From positions 1 through 38,060 of IMG/VR virus record IMGVR_UViG_3300046328_000030: a stretch of DNA of 38,060 bases; one strand, written 5' to 3'. Shown piece after piece: positions 3-31,659 of this stretch. The notes under the pieces are model-generated. The model was not told the origin of the DNA, searched no databases, and was given only the letters and a program-made list of their open reading frames with translations. The stretch's first letter is position 1. The number at the start of each line of letters is the position of its first letter. The position numbers and the translations under genes were made by a program. This DNA is from a virus.

Positions 3-98
3 GTTAAGGATGGAGGCTTTGATGAGCTTCTTCTTTCAATAGAATATCTAGGAGAAAAATATGGTGGAATTAAACGACCGGCTTCTAAAAGAGATTAA
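3..98 (+). CDS. Metallophosphoesterase, C-terminal part (continues from the window's right end)
   Basis: The open frame from base 3 to the TAA at 96-98 has no start of its own and encodes 31 residues (VKDGGFDELLLSIEYL...). It reads as the natural C-terminus of the metallophosphoesterase cut off at 38060: joining the ends through their shared AT gives ...VVLN-VKDGGFDE... in frame. The whole enzyme would be 265 aa. Its last 38 bases overlap the HNH gene that starts at 61. Fusion across the ends is inferred from frame and family-like sequence; I cannot see reads that span the junction. Confidence 0.8.
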   Translation, partial: VKDGGFDELLLSIEYLGEKYGGIKRPASKRD

Positions 99-525
99 AA
101 TAAAATATGATTATGATGGATACTTAGGAAGACTTGTTTTGAAAGGAACTCCGATTGATAAATCTTATGAAACAACACGAGGATATCGGAGATTGACTTT
201 TGATTCACGAGGTTATCTGCTTCATCGTTTAATTTTCTTTTACCATCATGGTTACTTTCCAAAAGTGGTAGATCATATTGATGGAAACGTGTTCAATAAC
301 AAAATTGAAAATCTACAAGGATGTACCCAAATAGAAAATATAGCTAAAGCACGAAAATTTAAAACTAATAAAACAGGTTTTACAGGCGTTAGTTATCATA
401 AGGCAGCTAAAAAGTATGAAAGTTACTTTTGGAGAAACTATGAAAAAATATACTGTGGACTTTGGGACACAGCAGAAGATGCCTACAAAGCTAGAGAGGA
501 GCGTAAATATGGCAAACAAATGTGA
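61..525 (+). CDS. HNH homing endonuclease with AP2-like C-terminal domain
   Basis: A 154-aa protein typical of free-standing phage homing endonucleases. The HNH core is at about residues 60-90 (VVDHIDGNVFNNKIENLQ), followed by an AP2/ERF-like DNA-binding segment from about 105 (TGFTGVSYHKAAKKYESYF...GLWDTAEDAYKA). Such enzymes nick or cut DNA near their own insertion site and spread between related phages. The start ATG lies 5 bases after AGGAG, inside the end of the metallophosphoesterase gene, and the gene's end overlaps the next start at 509, so it is inserted tightly between two conserved genes. Similar in architecture to the HNH gene at 31174. Target site unknown. Confidence 0.85.
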   Translation: MVELNDRLLKEIKIKYDYDGYLGRLVLKGTPIDKSYETTRGYRRLTFDSRGYLLHRLIFFYHHGYFPKVVDHIDGNVFNNKIENLQGCTQIENIAKARKFKTNKTGFTGVSYHKAAKKYESYFWRNYEKIYCGLWDTAEDAYKAREERKYGKQM

Positions 526-4945: not shown

Positions 4946-5568
4946 AAGCAAATGAAAACTTGGAAGAACTCTTGATGATGCCCCAAGAGCAGAAGGGTCT
5001 TATCCGTACTATCACTCAGCAGATGCACACTCACTTGGTGTTCATTGACGATGATATTACAGACCCTCGCAACTACCGTGATGTTATCCATTGCTTGGCT
5101 ACTTGCAGTGAGAATGACTCAGTTAACCTATTGGTGAATAGCTCAGGAGGACGCTCAGATAGTATCTGGCAGATCATTGAGGCAATGAAAGGATGTCGTG
5201 GTGATGTATCTGTTACAGTTATCGGTGCTGCGTACTCAGCAGCTAGTATGTTGGCTTGTATGGCTCCTGAGTGCTATATTGCTGATAGTGCTGAGTTCAT
5301 GCTTCATACTGCTCATTATGGTTCCATCGGTACTGTGCCGAATGTCAAAGGACAGACTGAGTTTGCTACACGACAGATTAACAAACTCCTTGACCAAGCC
5401 TACAAAGGATTCTTGACAGACAAGGAACTTGATGAACTGAAGAATGGTAAGGAGTTCTGGTTCGACGCTGAAGAGTCAGGTAAGCGTATGACTAAGCGTT
5501 ATAAATATCTCAATGGATTGAGTAAGCCACCTAAGCCTGCGAAGGTTAAGGAAGTTACTGTAGAGTAA
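4942..5568 (+). CDS. ClpP-like serine protease
   Basis: 208 aa with a ClpP/crotonase fold. The nucleophile is S99 in GAAYSAASML, the His probably H122 in FMLHTAHYG (spacing close to ClpP S98/H123), and NSSGG at 66-70 matches the oxyanion/strand region. The catalytic Asp is not clear to me. In many phages such proteases mature the prohead, but here the gene is last in the early/middle operon, far from coat and scaffold and on the opposite strand, so processing of host or phage regulatory proteins is equally possible. Directly followed by a terminator. Confidence 0.85.
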   Translation: MKANENLEELLMMPQEQKGLIRTITQQMHTHLVFIDDDITDPRNYRDVIHCLATCSENDSVNLLVNSSGGRSDSIWQIIEAMKGCRGDVSVTVIGAAYSAASMLACMAPECYIADSAEFMLHTAHYGSIGTVPNVKGQTEFATRQINKLLDQAYKGFLTDKELDELKNGKEFWFDAEESGKRMTKRYKYLNGLSKPPKPAKVKEVTVE

Positions 5569-5574
5569 ATGAAA

Positions 5575-5606
5575 AAGGCCCGTTAGAGTTTCCTCTAACG
5601 GGCCTT
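5575..5606. terminator. Strong hairpin terminator between convergent operons
   Basis: A perfect 14-bp stem (AAGGCCCGTTAGAG, loop TTTC, then its reverse complement) lies in the 44 bases between the ends of the two arms. A run of A precedes it and T-rich sequence follows it, so it can act in both directions: after the ClpP-like gene on the plus strand and after the last lysis gene on the minus strand. Confidence 0.9.
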
Positions 5607-5612
5607 ATCTGT

Positions 5613-5837
5613 TTATGGTTTACTGTTATGTGCAATAGTCACGAAAGCAGCCACAGTAGCCACAATCCATAACAAGGGTTTAGCTACTTTAGCGATCCAC
5701 TCAAGTACGGTAAAGGCTCCGGAGGCAGCGTTAAAGGCTGCTACCATTCCTTCTGTGTCCTTAGATACCTTGTCTACCTTAGCTTCTACCTTACACAACC
5801 TCTCATAGATTTCATTGTGTGATACTTCTTGGTTCAT
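5613..5837 (-). CDS. Small coiled-coil protein with one C-terminal membrane segment (putative holin/lysis protein)
   Basis: 74 aa. Residues 8-30 form an amphipathic, heptad-like helix (EIYERLCKVEAKVDKV), and a hydrophobic segment at about 50-68 (AKPLLWIVATVAAFVTIA) gives one transmembrane helix near the C-terminus. This plan resembles XhlA-type holin-associated proteins. It is the last gene of the leftward arm, and its start overlaps the holin-like gene upstream by four bases. Assignment to lysis rests on position and topology. Confidence 0.6.
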   Translation of the reverse strand: MNQEVSHNEIYERLCKVEAKVDKVSKDTEGMVAAFNAASGAFTVLEWIAKVAKPLLWIVATVAAFVTIAHNSKP

Positions 5838-6241
5838 TTCTTGCTCCTAAGTTCGGTAATCTTCTCCAGACTCCGAGAACCGAAGTAAGCACCAAAGATT
5901 AACATTCCCCAGTTACCCAAGAGAGTAACATAGGACTCATTAGCATTATACCCGAAAGCACTCATCATTGCAAAGGTGAAGTACCCAGATAGGATAGCGA
6001 TTAAAGACATAGGTCTAATGTTCTTAGATAGCCAAGAATCACTAGACATATCCGATTGCCATCGCTCAGTCACATTACCTTGCTCTGTCTTAAACAGCTC
6101 AATATCGTTAGCCATCTTAGCAAGTTCACCCTTCTGAGCCAGTTCTGCCAGCTTCATCTGAGCCTCTGCCTTTTGAGCAGGGTCAGGGATGAACTTATCT
6201 AAGAGCTTACCTCCGAAGTTTAATAAGGAATCAAGTACCAC
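5834..6241 (-). CDS. Holin-like protein, 3TM/GTA-type family
   Basis: 135 aa from a GTG start at 6241 that has AAGGAG seven bases upstream; longer in-frame starts lie inside the preceding gene. The pattern is an N-terminal helix (LLNFGGKLLDKFIPDPAQKA), a charged linker, then DSWLSKNIRPMSLIAILSGY and two or three hydrophobic helices, as in holins of the gene-transfer-agent release type. Expected to sit in the inner membrane and release the endolysin. Confidence 0.7.
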   Translation of the reverse strand: MVLDSLLNFGGKLLDKFIPDPAQKAEAQMKLAELAQKGELAKMANDIELFKTEQGNVTERWQSDMSSDSWLSKNIRPMSLIAILSGYFTFAMMSAFGYNANESYVTLLGNWGMLIFGAYFGSRSLEKITELRSKK

Positions 6242-6245
6242 GAGA

Positions 6246-6668
6246 TTACTCCTTACTTGTAGTGATAGAGTCCTTGCCTTTAGAGACAGTAACCTTACCA
6301 CCATCAACCGTCACAGACATAGGTTCCTTGTCGTTGAGCTTATCAAGCTTAGAGATCAAGTCACGAATAACTTCAAACTCAGGCTTCTCTTGCTTCGGAG
6401 CAGTACCTGCAATGCCATTGAGCATACTAATCAAGGCTGTTAAGGCAGCGCCTAAGAGACCCATAACAGCAGCAATCTTATCGTTATCAAGGACGATAGA
6501 AGCACCAACACCGATGGCAATGATTAAGGTGATGTAGAATAAACCACCCTCACCAATAGCCTTACCTGCAACTTCCTTGGCAGAACTCTCAGCATGGAGC
6601 TTACTTAATTCTACTTCAGCCTGAGCTTTAATCACTTGAATGTTATGTTTTAGATTATCTGTTGTCAT
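6246..6668 (-). CDS. Membrane protein with two hydrophobic helices, lysis cassette
   Basis: 140 aa: a basic/charged N-terminal helix, two adjacent hydrophobic helices at about 43-60 (LFYITLIIAIGVGASIVL) and 67-88 (AAVMGLLGAALTALISML), then a charged soluble tail. No family recognised. The ATG at 6668 overlaps the TGA of the displaced endolysin C-terminus (6665-6667), showing that this gene was once translationally coupled to the endolysin. Holin, antiholin or spanin-like roles are possible. Confidence 0.65.
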   Translation of the reverse strand: MTTDNLKHNIQVIKAQAEVELSKLHAESSAKEVAGKAIGEGGLFYITLIIAIGVGASIVLDNDKIAAVMGLLGAALTALISMLNGIAGTAPKQEKPEFEVIRDLISKLDKLNDKEPMSVTVDGGKVTVSKGKDSITTSKE

Positions 6669-6721
6669 GGATATTTGCTTTTGTTAAGTTCAAAGTGAGG
6701 GCCATCTTTAAAGGAGATCAT
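6665..6721 (-). pseudogene. Displaced original 3' end of the endolysin gene
   Basis: On the minus strand, directly after the HNH stop, a short frame encodes SFKDGPHFELNKSKYP and a stop. Ten of its 16 residues match the last 16 of the intact endolysin (SFVDGPHIELHSAKYV), including the zinc-ligand His of DGPH. Its TGA forms an ATGA overlap with the next gene. It is therefore the old endolysin tail, cut off when the HNH gene entered with a substitute tail. An ATG at 6721 could in principle start an 18-aa peptide, but that is probably chance. Confidence 0.85.
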
Positions 6722-7119
6722 AGTTTCTTTCTTTCTACATTTAATACACGAGATGCTTCTCGCTTACTATAAAAGAACTGGCCATCAATCTCCACTTCAT
6801 GGCATTTAGAGTGTTGTCCCCGCTTAAAAGCTAAAGAACAGTTCTCACCTGCTGTTACTAACTGAAGGTTTGAAATATGGTTGTTGCTTTTATTTCCGTC
6901 AATATGATCGACTGTATTCCCTTGTCCTCGCAGTTTAAAACAATCAGCTACAAGGCGATGAATTGTTACAGTTTTGTTCTTACTGTTACCTATCGAGATA
7001 TTGATACGAAGATAACCATAACGGTCAGTGCGTGGTTTCCTAATCTTACCTGAGGGGCCTTTGATGAAGCCTTCTTCAGTAACAAAAAGATTGTATATCG
7101 GATGCTTAACCCAATTCAT
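6718..7119 (-). CDS. HNH homing endonuclease inserted at the endolysin 3' end
   Basis: 133 aa. An N-terminal NUMOD4-like region (WVKHPIYNLFVTEEGFIKG) precedes the HNH core (TVDHIDGNKSNNHISNLQLV, about 72-92) and a NUMOD1-like helix at the end (FYSKREASRVLNV). The last domain stops abruptly at ERKKL, exactly where the displaced endolysin tail begins, so the protein is probably clipped at the insertion joint. AAGGAAACAAT precedes the start, nine bases after the endolysin stop. See the finding on the duplicated endolysin C-terminus. Confidence 0.88.
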   Translation of the reverse strand: MNWVKHPIYNLFVTEEGFIKGPSGKIRKPRTDRYGYLRINISIGNSKNKTVTIHRLVADCFKLRGQGNTVDHIDGNKSNNHISNLQLVTAGENCSLAFKRGQHSKCHEVEIDGQFFYSKREASRVLNVERKKL

Positions 7120-7128
7120 ATTGTTTCC

Positions 7129-7512
7129 TTAAACGTATTTTGCACTATGTAATTCGATGTGCGGACCATCGACGAAAGATGTCCAGTCTATCCCACAAAC
7201 GATAGGAATGTCAAGTTCTTTTGCCACTTTCTTAATATGGTCAGTCACAATGCGATAGTATTTTAACTCCCAAGTCACAGTACCATTCTTGATCACAGCG
7301 ATGTCCACAGCCTTCCCTGTCAGATGCCTACTGTTCATCGTCTGAGACTTACCCGCACTAAAGAGTTCCTGTTGGCGCTCCTTAGTACGTAAGCCTTCGG
7401 TGATGGAGAAGTCCAGAGGAGACTCTTTGATAGCCTCCTCAATTACTTTCACTAGATCAGGATGTACTCCGCTTAGACGTTCCTTAGATCTGTTTCCGAA
7501 TGAGAATGTCAT
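7129..7512 (-). CDS. Endolysin, M15-family L-alanyl-D-glutamate/D,D-peptidase
   Basis: 127 aa peptidoglycan peptidase of the VanY/M15 type. Zinc ligands are visible as H63 and D70 (SRHLTGKAVD) and H118 (DGPH), and the N-terminus (SFGNRSKERLSGVHPDL) is typical of phage endolysins. No signal peptide, so export depends on the holins downstream. The ATG at 7512 has AGGAAGCAGG upstream and follows the preceding stop directly. The final codons come from a different allele than the remnant at 6665-6721 and keep the active site whole despite the HNH insertion. Confidence 0.92.
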   Translation of the reverse strand: MTFSFGNRSKERLSGVHPDLVKVIEEAIKESPLDFSITEGLRTKERQQELFSAGKSQTMNSRHLTGKAVDIAVIKNGTVTWELKYYRIVTDHIKKVAKELDIPIVCGIDWTSFVDGPHIELHSAKYV

Positions 7513-7513
7513 T

Positions 7514-9142
7514 TTATCTACCTGCTTCCTGTGAGAGAGGATACCCAAATAAACCGCCAGTAGGTACAGTGCTTTGCTGGATAGTCTGCCCCAACAACTT
7601 AGCTAACTCTGGCCGCTGGCGTAAAAGAGCATCCGTTACTTTAAGACCCGGAGCAGAATACATCGCACTTGTCGCAGATAAGGCTGGGATAGCTACTTGA
7701 GGATTGGACAACAACGCAGCTCCTCCTGCGGCGCTCAAGGCTAAACGTCCTTCCAAGGTAGAGTTGACAGGATTACCGATTACCTGCATACCTGTTTCTG
7801 CCAGTTCCTGTCCTCGTGCAAGTCCTCGTGCAAAGTTCTTCTTATTACGAGTAACATCCAACTGTTTTACAGCAAGTTGATACTGTTTAGGCGTAAACAC
7901 TCCGTTTTCAGCGCCTGTATTAGCAGCTGCTTTACTCATGATAGACAAGTCACCGTAAGCGCTATCAATACGGCGAAGAGTAGAAGTCCATTTAGGATTC
8001 TGACTCTTAAGTTCTTCTTTGAAAGTCTTTAAGACATTCTGAAGAGCTTCCCCTACATTGCGATCAGAAGCAGAAGCACTATTCAAATATTTACTTGCTT
8101 CCTTACGAAGATCAGATTCTATTTGTTTATAGGTAGTTCCGGGAATCTTACTGTTGCTGAACTTATCCAACACAATGTTGTTTAAAACATTAGTTGCTTC
8201 TTGACGCTGTGCATCTGAAGTAAGATTAGATTTATTCAAAGAGGAAAGGATACCCGATGTTGTTTTAAAGTCCAAGTTAAAGGACATTTTACCCAATACA
8301 TCATCATACTTATTTGAAATCTGTTCAGCAGCGTAGTTAACGGCATCTCTTCCTACTACACTAGCTGGCAGTTTGTCATCTACTTTATCTAGTGCTTTAT
8401 TGATAACAGCTTTATTGTAATCAAATAGAACTTTCTCTCGTGCGCCTCGGATTTGTTCTCCCACCAGTGGCAAGTTCTGAGCGAAATCCTCAGCTTTCTT
8501 AAAGACTCCTCCCATTGTCTGTCCCGGAGTTGGTGTAATGCCTAGATCGCGCATTGTCTTTTCTGCTTTGGACACAAGAGGATTAGCAATCTTGGCTACG
8601 CCTTGAGCAGCAGCTTCCCCTAACACCCCCATACCGGCTCCAATACCGATTTGAGTAGCTTTTTCAGTAGTGTAATCTCCTTCAGAAGTGACAGGAGTTA
8701 ATACTGCCTGAGCCGCTCCTGCTGCCGCTGCTGGAATAGCCCGTCCTGTTGCTCCTAACGCCTGTGCTGCCTGTGCTCCACGTAAACCTACTGCAATGTT
8801 AGCAGGGTTTACTACGTTACCGGCAAGGCGACTCCAATCTATGCCTTCAGAACCAGATGCTGCACGATTAGCTTGATAGCCAGCTTCTTCAGCTTTGACC
8901 ATCTCACTAACTCGTTGAGCTTCCGAACCAAAAAACTTACTTACAGGATTAGGAACTGTACCTCCCAAAGACGTAAGCAGTTCTAAGCCTTTGGGAAGAA
9001 ACTGAGCACCTCCGCTGATAGGGTCTTTTAAGCCCATCAAAAAGCCGCTAGAAGGAGCATTGGCGTCTCCCTCAATCATTTTGATAGAAGATTTAGCAGC
9101 AGATTTAGTATCCTCTGTATCTTCAATAAATTTAATACCCAT
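7514..9142 (-). CDS. Internal virion / DNA ejection protein (large)
   Basis: 542 aa, last of three consecutive Ala/Gln-rich genes between the fibre genes and lysis, the usual place of podovirus ejection proteins (T7 gp14-16, P22 gp7/16/20). It has long Ala/Gly-rich helices (about 110-160) that could be membrane-active, and a helical middle with many charged residues. No transglycosylase motif seen. Starts two bases after the previous stop. Function is inferred from position, size and composition. Confidence 0.65.
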   Translation of the reverse strand: MGIKFIEDTEDTKSAAKSSIKMIEGDANAPSSGFLMGLKDPISGGAQFLPKGLELLTSLGGTVPNPVSKFFGSEAQRVSEMVKAEEAGYQANRAASGSEGIDWSRLAGNVVNPANIAVGLRGAQAAQALGATGRAIPAAAAGAAQAVLTPVTSEGDYTTEKATQIGIGAGMGVLGEAAAQGVAKIANPLVSKAEKTMRDLGITPTPGQTMGGVFKKAEDFAQNLPLVGEQIRGAREKVLFDYNKAVINKALDKVDDKLPASVVGRDAVNYAAEQISNKYDDVLGKMSFNLDFKTTSGILSSLNKSNLTSDAQRQEATNVLNNIVLDKFSNSKIPGTTYKQIESDLRKEASKYLNSASASDRNVGEALQNVLKTFKEELKSQNPKWTSTLRRIDSAYGDLSIMSKAAANTGAENGVFTPKQYQLAVKQLDVTRNKKNFARGLARGQELAETGMQVIGNPVNSTLEGRLALSAAGGAALLSNPQVAIPALSATSAMYSAPGLKVTDALLRQRPELAKLLGQTIQQSTVPTGGLFGYPLSQEAGR

Positions 9143-31021: not shown

Positions 31022-31166
31022 CGTAGAGCAATTGATCGTGGGAGCTACCGGAGTTGGCTACCTGATCGTGGGTGTGCTACAATGGAGCAAGGGAGAAATC
31101 TCTAACGGGATGATCTGGTCAGGTTACGCCTTTGCTCAGATTGGCCTTTGGCTTAACATTAAATGA
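31014..31166 (+). CDS. Small two-helix membrane protein
   Basis: 50 aa with two hydrophobic stretches (LIVGATGVGYLIVGVLQW and MIWSGYAFAQIGLWL). Overlaps the previous gene by eight bases. Membrane anchoring or superinfection roles are possible but unsupported. Confidence 0.6.
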   Translation: MINVEQLIVGATGVGYLIVGVLQWSKGEISNGMIWSGYAFAQIGLWLNIK

Positions 31167-31173
31167 GGAAGAT

Positions 31174-31659
31174 ATGATAGAAAATATTTTAAAGGATAGA
31201 TGTTTATATTTTCCTAATACAGGAGATATTGTATGGAGAAGTGACTTAGGAAAAGCCAAGGAAGGAGCAAGAGCAGTATTCTTCAGTAAAAAGACAGGAT
31301 ACGGCTCACTTCGAGTAAAACATCAAGGAATCAGATATACTTTTATGGCTCATCGAGTTGCATGGTTGTTGTATACAGATGAGTGGCCTAAAGGAGTTGT
31401 AGACCATATAGATAACAATCCCTCTAATAATGCTATATCTAATCTAAGAGATTGCTCTCAGTCTCATAATTTGGCGAGGCGTAGGATGAAAGAAAAAAAA
31501 CTTCCGAGGGGTGTAACTTATGTACACAATAATAAAAAAAATCCATATGTTGCTCAGGTCAGGTGTAAGCATGTAGGGTATTTCCCAACGCCTGAATTAG
31601 CCTCTCAAGCTTATGAGCTTGCCTTTGAGAAAGAATTTGGAAAAGAATGGAGAACTTAA
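31174..31659 (+). CDS. HNH homing endonuclease with AP2-like domain
   Basis: 161 aa. HNH core VVDHIDNNPSNNAISNLRDC (about 84-103) and a C-terminal AP2-like domain (RGVTYVHNNKKNPYVAQVRC...GYFPTPELASQAYELA). ATG 31174 follows GAGGAAG; a longer frame from 31132 lies in the membrane-protein gene. A+T-rich against its neighbours. Inserted between two small genes just ahead of the polymerase. Confidence 0.85.
   Translation: MIENILKDRCLYFPNTGDIVWRSDLGKAKEGARAVFFSKKTGYGSLRVKHQGIRYTFMAHRVAWLLYTDEWPKGVVDHIDNNPSNNAISNLRDCSQSHNLARRRMKEKKLPRGVTYVHNNKKNPYVAQVRCKHVGYFPTPELASQAYELAFEKEFGKEWRT

Follow-up and report, generated by a model that had tools for sequence, protein, structure and literature searches.

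A stranded endolysin gene end beside a homing-type HNH endonuclease: gene-end replacement in the lysis operon of a phage

Why should a phage hold the end of its endolysin gene twice, once in the working gene and once, stranded, beyond an HNH endonuclease gene? The question is raised by IMG/VR virus record IMGVR_UViG_3300046328_000030, which we analysed as one stretch of 38,060 nucleotides (here, the window); the phage encodes ribonucleotide reductase and PhoH, along with a ClpP-like protease and a polymerase of the PolI type. The intact endolysin ends in SFVDGPHIELHSAKYV, and a short spacer that opens with GGA, resembling a ribosome binding site, leads into the HNH gene (Table 1). The ATG of the mini-ORF that holds the second lysin tail (the remnant) overlaps the HNH stop (ATGA, 6721-6718), and the remnant's TGA (6667-6665) overlaps the ATG of a membrane protein gene, so that these 18 codons are linked on either side. 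Both tails and the TGA/ATG overlap lie where an earlier note on this DNA had placed them.

Table 1. Features of the endolysin-HNH-remnant locus
Feature	Position	Strand	Basis
Endolysin gene, 127 aa, M15-type peptidase	7512-7129	minus	ATG at 7512, stop ends at 7129
Putative incoming part of the lysin, with the DW and DGPH codons	7129..7260	minus	sliding identity, nearest tails
9-base spacer GGAAACAAT, lysin stop to HNH start	7120..7128	minus	sequence
Free-standing HNH endonuclease, 133 aa, I-HmuI-like	7119-6718	minus	Pfam, PHROG, PDB matches
Mini-ORF MISFKDGPHFELNKSKYP*, 18 codons	6665..6721	minus	translation
Stranded old lysin tail SFKDGPHFELNKSKYP-TGA, within the 18-codon mini-ORF	6715-6665	minus	translation, L009 match
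Predicted membrane protein gene, 140 aa	6668-6246	minus	ORF
Holin gene	6241-5834	minus	Pfam and PHROG matches

The endolysin matches Pfam Peptidase_M15_4 (E 5e-9) and PHROG 465, endolysin (E 7e-57), and its solved structural relatives include 2mxz. The HNH protein matches Pfam HNH_3 (E 2e-8) and PHROG 59 (E 2e-30), and its sole PDB match is the HNH homing endonuclease I-HmuI (1u3e_M, E 5.5e-9). The holin is recognized as Pfam GTA_holin_3TM (E 4e-8) and PHROG 3427, holin (E 5e-22). For the 140-aa membrane protein, neither Pfam nor PHROG gave a match at E 0.01; relatives of it are encoded in hundreds of viral contig stretches, in other gene surroundings. Two further HNH genes occur in the window, one near the ribonucleotide reductase genes (61-525, plus strand) and one before the DNA polymerase gene (31132-31659, plus strand).

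The two tails match in ten of 16 residues, as the earlier note had counted, and in 28 of 51 bases (our count, made by hand from the codon table). The resemblance exceeds chance, as judged by the E value of the remnant's match to a relative and by the flank similarity score of 58 described below. To place each tail, we scanned viral contigs with the window lysin, which yielded 48 related loci, and compared the tails with 33 distinct lysins. The remnant is nearest to the lysin of L009, a relative without the HNH gene, from which it differs at 6 of 51 bases (95.2% identity over 42 bases of the lysin 3' end, E about 1e-12). The working tail is nearest to those of L005 and L006, which carry the HNH, with 5 differences in 51 bases from each.

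The rest of the gene follows the same division. Over lysin bases 1-257, L009 and the window share 95.7% identity; the sliding identity of L009 to the window, 0.94-1.00 in the lysin head, falls to 0.54-0.62 in the incoming part. For the HNH carriers L005 and L006, identity is lower or variable in the head and reaches 0.85-0.90 in the tail, and the carrier L043 stands at 0.77-0.88 there. Since L009 and L005/L006 show opposite patterns, the window lysin is a mosaic, with a head of the L009/L004 type and a tail of the type found with the HNH, and the remnant is what the recipient's lysin formerly ended in. The earlier note had read the upstream tail as incoming and the downstream one as old, and this order holds: L009 matches head and remnant, and the HNH carriers match the working tail. 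Its view that the remnant is no recent tandem copy is borne out as well, as the tails are nearest to different lineages.

The earlier note compared 16 residues and spoke of a foreign allele of the active-site codons. The exchange is wider than those 16 residues and covers roughly the last 130 lysin bases, the final third of the gene; its left border is approximate, at lysin base 240-260 or thereabouts. The DW...DGPH motif of the M15 peptidase falls inside this part; in this family, DW would provide the catalytic Asp, and DGPH the final His that binds zinc.

The same HNH, 58-82% identical to that of the window, sits nine bases behind the lysin in L005, L006/L007, and L043, together with the same kind of tail, which agrees with the earlier note. 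In these carriers, the HNH runs directly into the holin start, without a remnant, and the spacer keeps its GGA start and nine-base length in L005, L006, and L043. A more distant HNH (58%) lies directly behind a distant M15-type lysin in L136. Among the relatives examined, the remnant is present in the window alone, and a pattern search across viral contigs turned up no second HNH-remnant join of this type. The bases that precede the remnant, ATGATCT, are also the start of the holin gene behind the HNH in L005; they may be donor-derived or common to both parents.

Between HNH carriers (window, L005, and L006), the HNH gene has a dN of about 0.12 and a dS of about 1 to 2.3, near saturation, which indicates that the protein is maintained by purifying selection. 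A band of elevated synonymous-codon conservation runs among HNH carriers from lysin codon 100 to HNH codon 12 (window 6990-7215); in the same three sequences, agreement there is 71-89%, vs 49-58% for HNH codons 43-133. With few sequences compared, either selection acting at the DNA level (e.g., for an immune site or signal) or conversion that happened repeatedly could lie behind this. An RNA fold of the lysin-HNH junction showed only one compensated pair in the consensus, which leaves the structure without support. A scan of the genome collection with the HNH alignment gave no confirmed relative, and nothing matched when the region was searched as nucleotides against GenBank phages.

The distribution of the HNH is patchy, as it is missing from the L004, L008, L010, L012, L019, and L044 records. 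The last of these is 98.8% identical to the window over 5.4 kb; its lysin (L044:5000-5400) has a 4-base deletion, real or an error, and a divergent 3' half in which DAVH replaces DGPH. Most HNH-free relatives have a lysin stop that overlaps the next gene's start (ATGA); that gene is usually a holin, and, taking all relatives together, most have a holin gene directly behind the lysin (or behind the HNH). The membrane gene is absent from all 12 of the related lysin-bearing records (12/12). The earlier note expected HNH-free relatives to end in the remnant-type tail, with an ATGA link to the membrane gene; L009 has such a tail, but its link goes to a holin. Elsewhere, in L031, L033, and L032 (5385-5850), a different HNH-type gene lies between lysin and next gene, so this position has seen more than one such entry.

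Two HNH-free relatives deserve attention. Substitute-type tails without the HNH would, in the earlier note, have spoken against its reading; L004 and L008 share the substitute-type core (CGIDW.SFVDGPHIEL), but their last third differs and ends HRSKYI-ATGA, which goes part of the way towards that refutation. The "foreign" tail is therefore an existing lysin allele. L004 and L008 may have lost the HNH by recombination, or they may represent the allele behind which it first settled; with either history, HNH carriers are not the only phages that have the substitute type.

We regard homing as the likely cause of this footprint and, at a probability of roughly 0.7, read the locus as follows. An I-HmuI-like HNH gene, resident behind the endolysin of a donor phage, would have been transferred to a phage whose endolysin was of the L009 type. 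A nick or cut in the recipient lysin probably fell near the DW-SF-DGPH codons, and the upstream side would have been repaired by homology with the donor lysin, a pathway suggested by its product. This repair would have copied in roughly 130 bases from the end of the donor lysin, together with the 9-base spacer and the HNH gene. On the far side, the donor had a holin gene behind its HNH and the recipient, as its state is reconstructed here, probably a membrane gene behind its lysin; these could not pair, and the join would therefore have used just a few bases, leaving the final 51 bases of the old lysin stranded. The lysin remains whole, and the HNH would be read within the lysis operon through the proximity of stop and start. 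The HNH insertion alone might interrupt its target, and it is plausible that the donor tail also renders the site uncuttable, as the earlier note proposed.

Some observations count against homing. The donor-type core occurs in the HNH-free L004 and L008, the left border falls where strains are almost identical in sequence and an assembly switch could have occurred, and the remnant is known from one virus contig.

Ordinary recombination might instead have swapped the lysin-holin boundary, HNH included, with an illegitimate join leaving the old tail and the endonuclease uninvolved. The lysin 3' half is strongly divergent among HNH-free relatives too (e.g., L010 and L012), so tail exchange may occur without an HNH, and several unrelated genes are found between lysin and holin in this family. 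Against this passive account stands a screen, confined to HNH genes, in which the upstream and downstream flanks of 208 HNH genes (129 clusters) were compared for peptide similarity, with 600 mismatched pairings as control. Flank similarity was enriched at the HNH genes: a score of at least 45 was reached by 9 of 129 clusters vs 2 of 600 mismatched pairings, and a score of at least 50 by 5 of 129 vs 0 of 600, with none of the 600 reaching 48. The window locus, at 58, ranked third of the 129 clusters; neither of the other two window HNH genes ranked high. Two of the nine high-scoring clusters were checked against relatives without the HNH at that place, and not all nine are convincing.

Both of the checked cases border HNH genes independently of the window. 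In L216 (1902-2520), from a phage unrelated to the window, an HNH gene precedes the terminase large subunit gene, and the terminase takes its start (MFIRTTAIN) from the final HNH codons, which are read there in a different frame. Upstream lies the stranded old start, MFKRTTAVNKIRQLKKRI, and the terminase of the HNH-free L376 begins with the same start; against L376, one of two HNH-free comparisons (the other being L378), the stranded start is identical at 51 of 54 bases and the working start at 33 of 54. This terminase N-terminus is, as its sequence reads, the mirror image of the lysin C-terminus in the window. In Lactococcus phages 05601 (L213) and JG7 (L400), an HNH gene is preceded by a fragment of the native ATPase start and followed by a wholly divergent ATPase, which is to all appearances the whole-gene version of the window case. 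In JG7, the fragment is annotated as a separate 34-aa "DNA polymerase", and Lactococcus phage 11W16L (L399) has the native ATPase gene without that HNH. Other matches were set aside: in Lactococcus phage 340 (L209), the flanks are truly similar, but the join is too complex for a clean end replacement, and the matches in L162, L296, L197, L226, and L344 look like chance, low complexity, or unclear cases. The L216 and Lactococcus cases suggest that the rewriting of gene ends by selfish genes recurs in essential phage genes, and we consider passive mosaicism unlikely for the window.

An assembly chimera of coexisting strains is very improbable. The window is a metagenomic contig, and the related contigs L042 and L045 end inside the lysin, hinting at assembly ambiguity; the HNH-remnant join, however, shares too few bases for an assembler jump, and the left border is less secure in this respect. 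Duplication of the lysin end in tandem, followed by divergence and insertion of the HNH between the copies, would leave the HNH flanked by two similar tails, as it is, but we rejected it from the comparison of the tails, which are not each other's nearest and share little more than half of their bases. Finally, a group I intron, with the lysin head spliced to the remnant and the HNH as its endonuclease, is almost certainly wrong, even though the remnant frame could complete a lysin and I-HmuI is itself intron-encoded: in line with the earlier note, no Rfam intron family, and hence no intron RNA core around the HNH, matched 5500-8500 at E up to 5, only nine bases and the HNH gene separate the tails, the lysin is complete without splicing, and the relatives that carry the HNH lack the remnant. 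The HNH is thus encoded outside any intron or intein.

The closest parallels to homing with a spare gene end come from fungal mitochondria, where mobile ORFs replace the C-terminus of atp6, atp9, cox2, and nad3 in Glomus (PMC3630166), of atp6 in Allomyces macrogynus (Paquin et al. 1994, as cited in PMC3630166), and of atp6 and cox2 in Phlebia radiata (PMC4019555). As in the window, an endonuclease lies behind a gene whose C-terminus is an in-frame foreign version, and the native C-terminus, matching insertion-free relatives, lies beyond it. The fungal elements are LAGLIDADG or GIY-YIG endonucleases in mitochondrial DNA, whereas the window has an HNH in a phage lysis operon; its system has a similar working plan but is not a member.

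Among phages, the free-standing seg and mob endonucleases of T4-like phages undergo intronless homing with co-conversion of flanking sequence, according to the passages on them in PMC2988022. Those passages describe, as in the window, free-standing endonucleases near presumed target genes, including HNH enzymes that nick, and expression by read-through from upstream genes; they describe no stranded old gene end, and their MobA and MobE split genes, whereas the window HNH comes with a replacement end. I-HmuI and I-HmuII of Bacillus phages, for which the same source describes marker exclusion that favours the carrier's flanking sequence, are of the same HNH type but are encoded in group I introns. 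Lactococcal Skunavirus phages have I-HmuI-like HNH genes beside conserved genes, some with exclusion activity (PMC12724721); in 05601 and JG7, a whole divergent ATPase follows the HNH, and in the window only a gene end was exchanged. A term search of the main text of PMC12724721 met no mention of stranded gene ends, and a literature search from which subscription papers largely fell out, and which is weak evidence, met no report of one beside a phage HNH gene.

What this locus shows is a genuine and well-resolved trace of gene-end replacement, linked to an HNH endonuclease of the homing type. That phage HNH genes may often travel with a divergent allele, immune to cutting, of all or just the end of a neighbouring essential gene is a wider proposal, which we offer tentatively and think rather doubtful. 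If it were true, the composite unit would repair what its insertion breaks and protect itself without an intron or intein; the window lysin, the L216 terminase, and the Lactococcus ATPase would be three independent cases, and the conserved synonymous band from lysin tail to HNH start could mark the immune site. Because the Lactococcus cases lie in sequenced, cultured phages, the idea is directly testable. It would mean that phages share a mode of movement described in fungal mitochondria, in which a selfish endonuclease carries a spare end for the gene it enters, would predict cut sites in conserved active-site codons, and would explain part of the mosaicism in lysis and packaging genes.
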